Assembly (NCBI RefSeq): GCF_001921205.1
Contig: NZ_MSIE01000090.1
Coordinates: forward strand, 1-38,774
From: Actinophytocola xanthii
Lineage (GTDB): Bacteria; Actinomycetota; Actinomycetes; Mycobacteriales; Pseudonocardiaceae
Direction: 5' to 3'
DNA: 38,774 nucleotides
Below, piece by piece: positions 9,785 to 13,273 of the stretch. The notes beneath the pieces were generated by a model. The model was not told the origin of the DNA. It did no database searches and worked only from the letters and a program-made list of their open reading frames with translations. The translations under genes were made by a program, and so were the position numbers. Numbering within the stretch: position 1 is the stretch's first letter; each line of letters begins with the position of its first letter.

Positions 9785-9937
9785 CCGGGTCAGAGGTTGC
9801 CCCGGCGCTCCTGCTCCCGTTCGATGGCCTCGCAGGTAACCGTCCTCGTCGCGGTCCACCAGGATGCGCTGCTCCTTGAGCACCTCGATCGGCACCCGGA
9901 CCTCGCCGATGCGGGCTCGCAGCTCGGGGTCGTCGTA
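9785..9937 (-). pseudogene. hppD 3' fragment with internal deletion
   Basis: This 153-bp stretch is a damaged copy of the end of the intact hppD gene. 9785-9832 matches 12081-12128 (one difference) and 9833-9937 matches 12236-12340 (two differences). The 107 bp in between (12129-12235) are missing, which breaks the frame. Part still reads [20 protein letters not shown]. The near identity points to a recent duplication. It is in the same orientation as hppD and lies 2.3 kb from it. It cannot encode an active enzyme. Confidence 0.92.
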
Positions 9938-9947
9938 GGCGGGCGTG

Positions 9948-9994
9948 GCGCTCTCCCACTACATCGCCATCTGGCTGGCGATGTTCGCCTAGCC
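9948..9994 (+). repeat. Exact 47-bp copy of the 3' end of the hemolysin III gene
   Basis: The 47 bp at 9948-9994 are identical to 9332-9378, the last codons and stop of the hemolysin III gene plus two bases. It lies immediately after the hppD fragment, with 10 unrelated bases (9938-9947) between them. The CTAG in this copy gives the stop codon of the damaged gene that follows on the minus strand, just as the original CTAG does for the HEAT-like gene. Confidence 0.95.
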
Positions 9995-10377
9995 ACCCAG
10001 CTGGTCGAGGGGCAGGACGGTACAGCCGCGCAGCTCGCGAAGCAGGTTCGTCGCGCAGACCCAACGGATGGCCGGGTCGTCGAAGGCCACCATCGCCTCG
10101 CCCAGTGGCGGGGTACCGCGCCGCCCAGATAGCGACCCCCTCGCACTCCGACGAGCGGGAACTCCCGCGCGCGGAACGCGACGGCGGCTCCGGACAGCGC
10201 GGGGCACCTCCCCAGCGACAGCCGAAGGCAGGGCAGGCATACCGGCGGCTCGGTGACGGCCATCCCCTCCGGCCAGCCCGGCCAGTCGTCCCGGTAGTCG
10301 ACGACCAGCCAGAGCACCCCCTCGTCGGTGCGGTCGGCCGGTCCGGCACATACCAGCGAACCGGCGGCGGGCGCCAC
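9989..10377 (-). pseudogene. Frameshifted small Cys-containing protein of an XRE/flavoprotein cassette
   Basis: From GTG 10377 the frame reads a protein with SLVCAGPADRTDEGVLWLVVD, DDWPGWPEGMAVTEPPVC and CLPC, a type found next to XRE regulators and flavoproteins in Streptomyces and relatives, of unknown function. The reading frame then fails; the conserved continuation LGEAMVAFDDPAIRW and the rest run in another frame to TAG at 9989. The break is at a run of four G at 10110-10113 (C on the coding strand); one more base would restore AVPPLGEAMV. The C-terminus and stop run into the 47-bp hemolysin III copy. It follows the flavoprotein gene by about 35 bp and may once have been the last gene of that operon. 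Whether the indel is real cannot be told here. Confidence 0.65.
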
Positions 10378-10379
10378 CA

Positions 10380-10400
10380 ACCCGGACAAAATGTCCGGGT
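10380..10400. promoter_or_regulatory. Perfect hairpin ACCCGGACA-AAA-TGTCCGGGT
   Basis: Nine-base arms with a 3-base loop lie between the flavoprotein stop codon (10413) and the start of the frameshifted gene (10377). It could end or attenuate the flavoprotein transcript or be an operator. The symmetrical GGACA/TGTCC core resembles a regulator site, but the regulator gene of the cassette has lost its HTH. Confidence 0.5.
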
Positions 10401-10412
10401 CACCGGATGGTG

Positions 10413-10964
10413 TCAGGTCTCGACGGCCGCGAGGACGGCGTTGATGATCGAGCGCCACGGCAGGTCTCTGCCGGGTTCGGAGCGCGGCTCGTGGAGGGGC
10501 CAGACGTCGTCTCCGGTGAGCAGGTGGACGCCGGCGCCCCGCAGCGCGGCCAGGTGGCTCTCCCAGGCCGGCTGCCTGGCGTGCGCCGCGTTGATGCGGG
10601 GGAACACGACGACCGGCACCGTGCCCAGGCCAATCGCCTCGCACACCTGGGTAAGGGCCTGGTTGTCGGCCAGACCGAGCGCGAGCTTCGCGACCGTGTT
10701 CGAGGTCGCCGGTACCACGGCGTGGCAGTCCACCGGTGGATGCGGCCTCTCCTCGCCGGGCAGCCGCGGCTTCCACCGCACCGGGAGGCCGGTGGCCTGC
10801 TCGATCCGCTCGATGTCACCGGTCGCCGCGAGCCAGGTGGCGGCGGTCGGAGTGAGTGTCACGGCCACGCGCCAGCCGCGTTGTCGGAGTGGCTCGACCA
10901 GCTCCGGCAGGAGCCGCTCCACGCCACCGGCGGCCGAGCCGACCAGGCCAAGGACCGGTGCCAT
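10413..10964 (-). CDS. Flavoprotein (Dfp/PPCDC-like)
   Basis: A 183-residue protein of the HFCD flavoprotein family, related to phosphopantothenoylcysteine decarboxylase and EpiD. The N-terminus MAPVLGLVGSAAGGVER is the FMN-phosphate-binding strand and loop; VVPATSNTVAKLALGLADN (about residues 84-102) is the counterpart of the PASANT motif. The substrate is unknown. ATG 10964 overlaps the stop codon of the upstream regulator gene (TGATG), so translation is probably coupled. The same pair of regulator and flavoprotein occurs in many actinomycetes. It appears intact, but both partners around it are damaged. Confidence 0.82.
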   Translation of the reverse strand: MAPVLGLVGSAAGGVERLLPELVEPLRQRGWRVAVTLTPTAATWLAATGDIERIEQATGLPVRWKPRLPGEERPHPPVDCHAVVPATSNTVAKLALGLADNQALTQVCEAIGLGTVPVVVFPRINAAHARQPAWESHLAALRGAGVHLLTGDDVWPLHEPRSEPGRDLPWRSIINAVLAAVET

Positions 10965-12052
10965 CAGCTCTCGTCCACCGCGCGGCACCGCTGCGCCAGC
11001 GCGAGCAGCAGTGCGGACCTGCGACCGCCGGTGACGGGCGCGCGGCGGTAGAGGGTGCGTACGACCTCCCGGGCGAGTGCCGAGTGCCGGACGAGCTGGG
11101 GGGACTTCTCCTCCGCGGACCACAGCACCTGTAGGGCGTCGTCGTCCCTGGCCAGCAGGCTCAGGGCACGGGCGTAGTCGATCAGGTGCACGACCTGACG
11201 CTCGACCGGCAGCGAGCCGGTGTCGACCCGACCGGCCTGCTCCACGACCAGTGGGACGTCGCCCAGGTCGAGGCTGGCGGAGATCCGGTGCAGTGCGACG
11301 TTGGTGGGACCGAAGCCCGTCGCCCAGTGGTTCGCGTCGGTGCCGAGCGTGTGAGCCGCCGTTTCGGCCTTGGCGAGCAGCTCGTTCGTCAGGCTCCGAT
11401 CCTGTTGGCGGGCCGCGGCGATGGCCGAGCGGAGATGGAGCATGCCGTAGAGGCTGAGGGCGGCGGGATCGCCGTCCTTCATTCGCGGCGCCAGCCAACC
11501 GGCGGCGGCGGTGCCGAGCCGCAGGGCGTCCTCGAACCGACCGACGGCGAGAAGCGCGTGGGTGGCCGAGCGTGCGGCGGAGGCCAGGACCAGGGGATCG
11601 TCAGCGATATCCGCGGCCTGCATCGCCCGCTCGGCGGCGATCCAGCCGAGGTCAGCCTCGCCGATCTTCGCCAGCGTCGTCGCGGCCAGGTGGTGGACGC
11701 GGGCGGACACCGCGGCGCACCGGCGCCGGTAGGGCCGGTCGCCTCCGGCCGCCTCCATGCGCTGGGCCGTCTCGATCAAGCGGGGTAGCGCGGCCACGAC
11801 CCGCCCGATCCGCCCGCCCTGGTAGTCCGTGAAGGCGTTCTCAGCCCAGCTGGCGACCGGCGCCGGATCCACGTACTCGGACTCGACCCCGGCGAACAAC
11901 GTCCTGGACAAGCGCCGGGGAGCCATCAGCGCGTCCCGGACGGCGGGGACGTCGTCACCACGGTGCTCGTCCTCGAGCAGCGTCGGCTGGCCGAGCAGGT
12001 CGGTGAGGGTGACGCGTTCGCCGATGGTCAACGGGTCCCCGGCGCCGCGCAT
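10964..12052 (-). CDS. XRE-family regulator C-terminal part, HTH domain missing
   Basis: A 362-residue protein consisting of the helical, TPR-like sensor region seen in actinomycete XRE regulators paired with flavoproteins. The beginning, GERVTLTDLLGQPT, matches the junction just after the DNA-binding domain in relatives, so about 70-80 residues including the helix-turn-helix are absent. The sequence upstream becomes the 3' end of hppD after 33 bp, so the gene was probably cut when this segment was joined. A TAGCCT hexamer 6 nt before ATG 12052 could still drive a leaderless transcript. Two neighbouring genes follow on the strand, the first coupled by TGATG. It may be a decaying pseudogene or a DNA-binding-free regulator. 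Confidence 0.72.
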   Translation of the reverse strand: MRGAGDPLTIGERVTLTDLLGQPTLLEDEHRGDDVPAVRDALMAPRRLSRTLFAGVESEYVDPAPVASWAENAFTDYQGGRIGRVVAALPRLIETAQRMEAAGGDRPYRRRCAAVSARVHHLAATTLAKIGEADLGWIAAERAMQAADIADDPLVLASAARSATHALLAVGRFEDALRLGTAAAGWLAPRMKDGDPAALSLYGMLHLRSAIAAARQQDRSLTNELLAKAETAAHTLGTDANHWATGFGPTNVALHRISASLDLGDVPLVVEQAGRVDTGSLPVERQVVHLIDYARALSLLARDDDALQVLWSAEEKSPQLVRHSALAREVVRTLYRRAPVTGGRRSALLLALAQRCRAVDES

Positions 12053-12058
12053 GTGCCG

Positions 12059-12064
12059 AGGCTA
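12059..12064 (-). promoter_or_regulatory. Putative -10 box before the truncated regulator
   Basis: TAGCCT on the minus strand ends 6 nt before ATG 12052. It may be a chance promoter acquired at the recombination junction. Confidence 0.35.
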
Positions 12065-12085
12065 GCGCGGTGCCGGGGGTCCGGG

Positions 12086-13273
12086 TCAGAGGTTGCCCCG
12101 GCGCTCCTGCTCCCGCTCGATGGCCTCGAACAGCGCCTTGAAGTTGCCCTTGCCGAACCCCAACGACCCGTGCCGCTCGATCAGCTCGTAGAACACCGTG
12201 GGGCGGTCGCCGACGGGCTGGGTGAAGATCTGCAGCAGGTAACCGTCCTCGTCGCGGTCCACGAGGATGCGGTGCTCCTTGAGCACCTCGATCGGCACCC
12301 GGACCTCGCCGATGCGGGCTCGCAGCTCGGGGTCGTCGTAGTAGGAGTCCGGGGTGTCCAGGAACTCGACGCCGGCCTCGCGCATGGCGGCGACGGTGCT
12401 GATGATGTCGTTGGTCGCCAGCGCGATGTGCTGGCAGCCCGCTCCCTCGTAGTACTCGAGGTACTCGTCGATCTGGGACTTCCGCTTGGCGATGGCCGGC
12501 TCGTTGAGCGGGAACTTCACCCGGTGGTTGCCGTTCGAGACGACCTTGCTCATCAGGGCCGAGTAGTCCGTGGCGATGTCGTCGCCGATGAACTCCGCCA
12601 TGTTCACGAAGCCCATCACCCGGTTGTAGAAGTCCACCCAGTAGTCCATGCGGCCCAGCTCGACGTTGCCCACGCAGTGGTCGACCGCCTGGAACAAACG
12701 CTTGCGCGCGGGCACCGACGACTCCTTGGCCACATAGCCGGGCAGGTAGGGACCCGTGTAGCGGGAGCGGTCGACCAGCGTGTGGCGGGTCTCGCCGTAG
12801 GTCGCGATGGCGGCGCGGCGGATGGTGCCGTGCTCGTCGGAGACGTCGTTGGGCTCCTCGAGCACGGTCGCGCCCTGTGCCCGCGCGTGCTCGATGCAGC
12901 GGTCGACGTCGGCGACCTCGAGGGCGAGGTCGACCACGCCGTCGCCGTGCCTGCGGTGGTGGTCGTGCAGCGGGCTGGTCGGCGCGACGCCGCCGTTGAC
13001 GACGAAGCGGGCCGAACCGGACTTGAGCACGAACGACTTGTGGTCGCGGTTGCCCGTCTCCGGGCCGGAGTACGCGACGAGCCGCATGCCGAACGCGAGC
13101 TGGTAGAACCACGCGGTCTGGGTCGCGTTCCCCACGGTGAACACGACAGCGTCCATCGCGCGGACGGGGAACGGGTCCTTCGACTCGTCGTGTTCCACGA
13201 GCCCGACGAGCTGGCGCAGCTGGTCGAAGCTCACGTCGTCGAGTTGCCTGTTCTGGCCGAGGGTGCCGGTCAT
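12086..13273 (-). CDS. hppD: 4-hydroxyphenylpyruvate dioxygenase
   Basis: A 395-residue Fe(II) dioxygenase that turns 4-hydroxyphenylpyruvate into homogentisate in tyrosine breakdown. The two vicinal oxygen chelate halves are visible, and the metal ligands are in [15 protein letters not shown] and VFYELIER near the C-terminus. The conserved C-terminal [18 protein letters not shown] is intact. ATG 13273 is preceded by GGGAGGA. It diverges from an Lrp/AsnC regulator with 114 bp between, holding a perfect palindrome at 13346-13362. A damaged copy of the 3' end lies at 9785-9937. No homogentisate dioxygenase gene is in the window. Confidence 0.96.

Follow-up and report, generated by a model that had tools for sequence, protein, structure and literature searches.

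The window analysed here is a stretch of 38,774 nucleotides from Actinophytocola xanthii (Pseudonocardiaceae), which constitutes an entire contig (NZ_MSIE01000090.1, C195 in our numbering) of a draft genome of 8.34 Mb in 204 contigs. The subject is the seam between hemIII, a hemolysin III family gene, and hppD, whose 3' ends face each other because hppD lies at one end of an inverted block of about 7 kb. From left to right, the interval between the hemIII end (9376) and the hppD end (12086) holds a HEAT-like gene, damaged second copies of both gene ends (hppD' and hemIII'), a small open reading frame (ORF), a flavoprotein gene, and an NsdA-like regulator gene. The features of the locus are as follows:

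8705..9376, plus strand: hemIII, hemolysin III family gene, intact (PF03006, E 2.2e-50; TIGR01065); left flank of the breakpoint
9373..9732, minus strand: HEAT-repeat-like gene (PF13646, E 5.1e-5, below the gathering score)
9780..9938, minus strand: hppD', duplicate of the 3' end of hppD, identified by sequence match, with 107 bp missing and 10 bp included past the stop codon
9937..9938, no strand: novel joint hppD'/hemIII', with the 2-bp microhomology AG
9937..9994, plus strand: hemIII', duplicate of the 3' end of hemIII, split into a 14-bp piece (equal to 9186-9199) and a 47-bp piece (equal to 9332-9378), with 135 bp missing and GCG microhomology
9989..10351, minus strand: small ORF, probable remnant of a multicopy gene family, whose homologues match in two frames and whose stop codon is common with hemIII'
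10413..10967, minus strand: flavoprotein gene (PF02441)
10964..12052, minus strand: NsdA-like regulator gene without its helix-turn-helix (HTH) domain
12086..13273, minus strand: hppD, intact (TIGR01263, E 4.7e-128); left end of the inverted block
12076..19190, no strand: inverted block with hppD, lrp/asnC, greA, a gene at 14654, mca, a yyaL-like gene, and a gene at 18558, in reversed order compared with the genus relatives
19191..19343, no strand: right inversion breakpoint J2, a stretch of 153 bp for which the fetched regions of the relatives gave no match better than E 0.05

All genes from hppD through the 18558 gene lie in a block that is inverted relative to the genus. Its genes include some that we take to be greA, mca, and yyaL; the yyaL-like protein belongs to Pfam PF03190. 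In a gene-by-gene comparison with five genus relatives, the block genes were reversed in both order and strand, and the flanks (624-9376 and 19.4-38.7 kb) were collinear, with hemIII keeping identical left-hand neighbours in all five. The rearrangement is thus a chromosomal inversion, and the adjacency of hppD to hemIII is itself its product. The ancestral order is present on a single contig in G001, G003, and G005; in G002 and G004, hemIII and hppD are located on separate contigs, each with the ancestral neighbours as far as the sequence was fetched. Four outgroup loci from Saccharothrix and Streptoalloteichus (L018, L019, L037, and L045), the sole named loci in which hemIII accompanied hppD, are uninverted as well. 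The family was surveyed with 130 genomes per gene, sampled evenly from a larger group with one genome per species. Both genes were found on one contig and at most 200 kb apart in 93 genomes, among which the window was the only one with facing 3' ends. In 85 of the other 92, the two genes shared a strand, with hppD lying downstream of hemIII, and in the remaining seven hemIII was flipped or moved relative to the block. Smaller rearrangements among the 85 concerned the 18558 gene, which is on the other strand in G389, and the CGS gene, which is on the other strand in G017. The survey left out the second match to hemIII in G385 and to hppD in G228, genomes in which hemIII had no match, most entries on a contig other than that of hemIII, and the genomes G294 and G296, in which hppD is more than 1 Mb away from hemIII. 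On the left flank, a segment with two genes (2787-4648) has no counterpart at that place in the relatives; weak matches to it (34-52%) lie within the relatives' counterpart of the inverted block, between mca and the yyaL-like gene (G001:C11:135643-136621 and G003:C10:206692-207507).

The right breakpoint J2 is located between the 18558 gene and a 98-aa gene at 19378-19674. This small gene has the same orientation relative to the CGS gene in the window, G002, G004, and G005, and lies on the opposite strand in G001 (C11:130555-130824) and G003 (C10:201368-201628), which indicates a second small flip near this breakpoint. Between the two breakpoint zones (9300-12140 and 19150-20000), no exact inverted match longer than 14 bp was detected; two 13-mer matches, both inside the 14, compare with 0.36 expected. 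An inversion via long inverted repeats was considered and rejected: 76 inverted pairs occur within 9300-20000, and the 25 longest, which were inspected, are all imperfect and do not exceed 33 nt. As no exact inverted match between the zones is longer than 14 bp, both an inversion by long repeats and a confusion during assembly are unlikely. A misassembly, either as a chimera of two strains or through a false join, would be compatible with the window being one whole contig of a 204-contig draft, but exact repeats in the seam reach no more than 69 bp, so that together with the short inverted matches there was little to confuse an assembler, and the deletions at short repeats look biological. We therefore give this explanation hardly any credence.

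The left end of the inversion fell in a variable gap downstream of hemIII. In 73 genomes, hemIII and the 18558 gene form a convergent pair with 17-9817 bp between the matches, a length taken between match ends and accurate to some tens of bases. The cargo of this gap changes among the genus relatives. Named from sequence reading rather than from database matches, it comprises MarR-, oxidoreductase-, HTH-, flavoprotein-, and acetyltransferase-like genes in G005, and MFS and LysR genes in G001. DarT and DarG adjoin hemIII in G004, and in G003 the neighbours are an AAA_21 gene and a DUF4276-like gene (below the Pfam cut-off), a pair that matches HEC-01A and HEC-01B. In the wider family, 10 chosen ORFs from 8 of 11 fetched gaps encoded metabolic enzymes and a protein kinase, two being without a match. 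Three of these 10 ORFs, from three genomes, are acyl-CoA oxidase-like, so that part of the content is shared and not changing cargo. In a PADLOC scan of five ORFs from four gaps, one G264 ORF matched KwaB (E 4e-10); another matched several models via its HTH only, and three gave no match. Across the relatives (L013, L014, L015, L016, and L202-L212), the gap beside hemIII has the appearance of an accessory-gene hot spot, and some of them carry defence genes in it. At the other end of the block, the gap between hppD and the CGS gene, likewise taken between match ends, ranges from 113 bp to 27.6 kb (81 genomes).

The seam itself contains second copies of both gene ends. hppD' is composed of two pieces, 9780-9832 corresponding to 12076-12128 and 9832-9938 corresponding to 12235-12341, whereby 107 bp were lost. 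Its coding part differs from hppD at three positions (9820, 9860, and 9869), every one a third codon position, and two further differences (9783 and 9784) fall within the 10 bp common to both copies past the stop codon. The three differences in about 150 bases (2%) compare with 23-27 in 260 bases (8.8-10.4%) between the window and its genus relatives. At position 12263, hppD' carries the base of four of the five relatives, and the intact hppD deviates. In hemIII', the 47-bp piece (9948-9994) is identical to 9332-9378 in all 47 positions, and the 14-bp piece (9937-9950) is identical to hemIII 9186-9199, the 135 bp having been lost between two GCG triplets. Random 9-bp filler produced the 12-bp part of this extension at a rate of 0.0005 (4000 simulations). 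The initial annotation had already described a damaged hppD end with a 107-bp deletion and three differences next to an exact 47-bp copy of the hemIII end; both are confirmed, the former with an extent of 9780-9938 and the latter extended by the 14-bp piece. Altogether, exact direct repeats of at least 20 bp within 9300-12400 measure 69, 47, 35, and 28 bp, which is far more than expected by chance. The 47-bp repeats were also considered as att sites of an integrated site-specific element. This was rejected, since no integrase match was obtained among the seven proteins scanned from 8.7-13.9 kb and since, as an att core, the repeat should not continue, as the hemIII copy does, with 14 bp beyond a 135-bp gap.

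The native gene ends are preserved in both copies, hemIII up to TAGCC and hppD up to 10 bp past the stop codon, and divergence begins where the cargo begins. The locus therefore consists of two consecutive units, hemIII-HEAT-hppD' and hemIII'-cassette-hppD, joined inside hppD and inside hemIII. Microhomology as in scars of end joining or illegitimate recombination is found at the joint between the units and at the deletions: AG at the joint, one base at the gap of hppD', GCG at the gap of hemIII', and an imperfect six-base repeat at a deletion in the regulator gene. The shape of the hppD'/hemIII' joint is that of a tandem-duplication joint, which would suit a plain tandem duplication of hemIII-X-hppD within a single lineage, after which cargo turnover or complementary deletions left the HEAT-like gene in one copy and the cassette in the other. 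Such a course requires extra deletions or replacements ending within a few bases of both gene ends, and we regard it as decidedly unlikely. A capture of short local fragments during end joining appears very improbable. Here, the HEAT-like gene and the cassette would have been neighbours, and a break between them would have been filled with four pieces from the ends of hppD and hemIII (about 53, 107, 14, and 47 bp). According to the available part of a Streptomyces study, three repair scars contained inserted pieces of 30, 42, and 83 bp, of which two originated nearby (PMC5869714). In the window, however, the four pieces all follow the native order and orientation, and their outer boundaries coincide with the native gene ends; moreover, freshly captured pieces should be identical, yet hppD' differs by 2%.

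The stop codon of the HEAT-like gene overlaps the hemIII stop in a common CTAG. The gene was detected in 29 of 390 family genomes including that of the window, but in none of the other five genus genomes. In one related genus (g25), it adjoins the orthologue of the gene at 24742-25962, about 6 kb beyond the CGS gene, in all five loci fetched (L190-L193 and L201; seven g25 genomes matched). It was also considered as a resident of the gap between hppD and the CGS gene, but these loci have it at the other position. Seven further loci, retrieved from other genera, showed no conservation of a window gene beside it. The window protein also weakly matches the PADLOC model HEAT-ARM_XIII (E 3e-6).

The distribution of the HEAT-like gene bears on a complex event within one genome. 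Repeated template switching could have made the inversion and, in the same pass, copied hppD-HEAT and hemIII-cassette from an uninverted parent with the order hemIII-cassette ... hppD-HEAT. This would account for the inversion and both duplicated gene ends together, and the measurable joint and the deletions show 1-6 bp of homology. In addition, a flavoprotein gene whose product is 77% identical to that of the window lies near hemIII in the uninverted G005, with one gene in between. On the other hand, about four switches are required, the HEAT-like gene is absent from the five genus relatives, in the five g25 loci its place is past the 24742 orthologue and its strand is opposite to that expected, and the 2% difference in hppD would have to have arisen later. 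Such an event is unlikely, though not negligible. Quite unlikely is its fuller version: one replication or repair event in the bacterium would have switched templates several times, inverting the 7 kb, leaving duplicated gene ends in between, and inserting the result into a defence-gene hot spot, where the two cargo modules each became linked to the core gene through its shared CTAG stop codon.

The cassette had been described initially as truncated at its regulator. This does not apply, as the gene retains its start and the loss is internal, which also rules out a cut at the cassette edge: an in-frame deletion of 50 residues corresponds to residues 13-62 of the 413-residue G001 homologue and removes nearly all of the HTH (PF13560 at 11-68 in that homologue). 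The edges of the deletion carry an imperfect six-base repeat (CGCGTC in the window, CGCGTT and CGTGTC in G001). Past the deletion the frame is open, and the differences to G001 by codon position amount to 62, 34, and 137 over 362 codons; judging from these sequences, the deletion would be young relative to the gene. Regulator and flavoprotein form a common unit, the flavoprotein being encoded at 29 of 30 regulator loci fetched, including that of the window, and not at L133. The pair is located on C3 in G001. An origin of the cassette in the relatives' hemIII gap was considered; among the genus relatives, the flavoprotein gene is present there in G005 only, without the regulator or the small gene.

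The small ORF has matches in 42 of 390 genomes and is probably a frameshifted remnant, given the matches in two frames. Its family is unnamed and multicopy, with six matches in the genome of the window and 10 in G004, where a split gene was counted twice. Members include G000:C1:41824-42042, further ones on C79, C90, and C185, and those at L177 and L178; two longer members gave no Pfam match.

We cautiously favour the view that the seam combines the left inversion breakpoint with a second, tandem-type illegitimate join, which would make it a known kind of event and not a new system. On balance, this join appears to have placed two versions of the already inverted locus in tandem, a merger of two alleles, by end joining or by homology-facilitated illegitimate recombination. 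In the inverted ancestor, the cargo between hemIII and hppD would have varied from strain to strain. One version, supplied by a sibling strain or present as a second copy, would have been joined to the other through homology on one side and the 2-bp microhomology on the other. Ku-dependent end joining, for which the genome has two Ku genes, or homology-facilitated illegitimate recombination may have served as the route. The redundant gene ends would then have lost 107 and 135 bp by short-repeat deletions, with the intact hemIII and hppD retained, and the regulator would have lost its HTH by a deletion of the same type. What we infer here is where the second unit came from, in which order the events took place, and which enzymes acted. 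Because hppD came to lie next to hemIII through the inversion, both versions would be derived, inverted ones. The three third-position differences and the relatives' base at 12263 argue against hppD' being merely a degraded form of the present hppD.

Several points weigh against a tandem join of two versions. No genome with a single unit, either hemIII-HEAT-hppD or hemIII-cassette-hppD, was found among the 92 other family genomes, each of which is another species. The HEAT-like gene sits elsewhere in g25, a position that does not explain how it reached hemIII. All three changes would fall at third positions by chance in one of 27 cases, which makes the two-version argument weak, and the few differences together with the relatives' base at 12263 also fit an old duplication. 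The available part of the source documents homology-facilitated illegitimate recombination in naturally transformable species (PMC6382021). Either the inversion or the tandem join may have come first, and a 20-nt inverted pair with 90% identity links the flavoprotein gene (10530-10549) with J2 (19232-19251); the 14-bp match mentioned above is the core of this pair, which is near chance expectation and lies away from the left joints.

Compared with the initial annotation, which had interpreted the interval as the scar of a recent merger of two alleles, the scar is borne out but is secondary to the larger inversion. The merger remains the best reading, since the order hemIII-X-hppD'/hemIII'-Y-hppD fits it, although the hppD-hemIII adjacency is itself an inversion product. 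Recent holds in a relative sense only, when the 2% between the hppD copies is set against the divergence from the genus relatives. The comparison with relatives proposed as a check did not reveal either single-unit arrangement.

No literature on the hemIII/hppD locus turned up in our searches, none of which was aimed at hemolysin III. The locus offers a base-resolution view of a hot spot for accessory genes, flanked by two convergent core genes, that served as a breakpoint for an inversion and for the joining of cargo, with homology at the joints too short for ordinary recombination. Should sibling strains bear out the two cargo versions, it would allow a test of whether cargo, including defence systems, is shuffled in actinomycetes by end joining rather than by integrases. 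As a single fossil, it changes no principle.

Accessory-gene hot spots between conserved core genes are a known phenomenon; our literature search listed no paper on them. The gap between hemIII and the 18558 gene resembles them in its different cargo in each relative and in the defence genes of some; it differs in that the site of the window doubled as an inversion breakpoint and in that three gaps of the wider family share an acyl-CoA oxidase. The regulator can be compared with the NsdA family (NCBIfam NF053720), to which it aligns over residues 76-338, and the full-length G001 homologue has the HTH. In contrast to this family, the window protein scored 42.9 bits, below the curated cut-off of 75 bits, its HTH is deleted, and it has no Pfam match. 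Homology-facilitated illegitimate recombination is described for Acinetobacter, pneumococcus, and P. stutzeri in the available part of the source (PMC6382021). Those cases concern other genera; in the window, either side could be the anchor, and the joint has 2 bp. The likeness is that one side of the seam could be anchored by homology, in hemIII or hppD, and the other joined by a few base pairs. Scars of non-homologous end joining in Streptomyces show microhomology at the joints, deletions, and captured short fragments, as far as the available part of that report goes (PMC5869714). Those scars arose from induced breaks, whereas the window combines an inversion with a tandem-type joint of two cargo units and is known only as a fossil. 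Nevertheless, microhomology, deletions, and short fragments are common to both, and Ku genes are present in the genome of the window, too.

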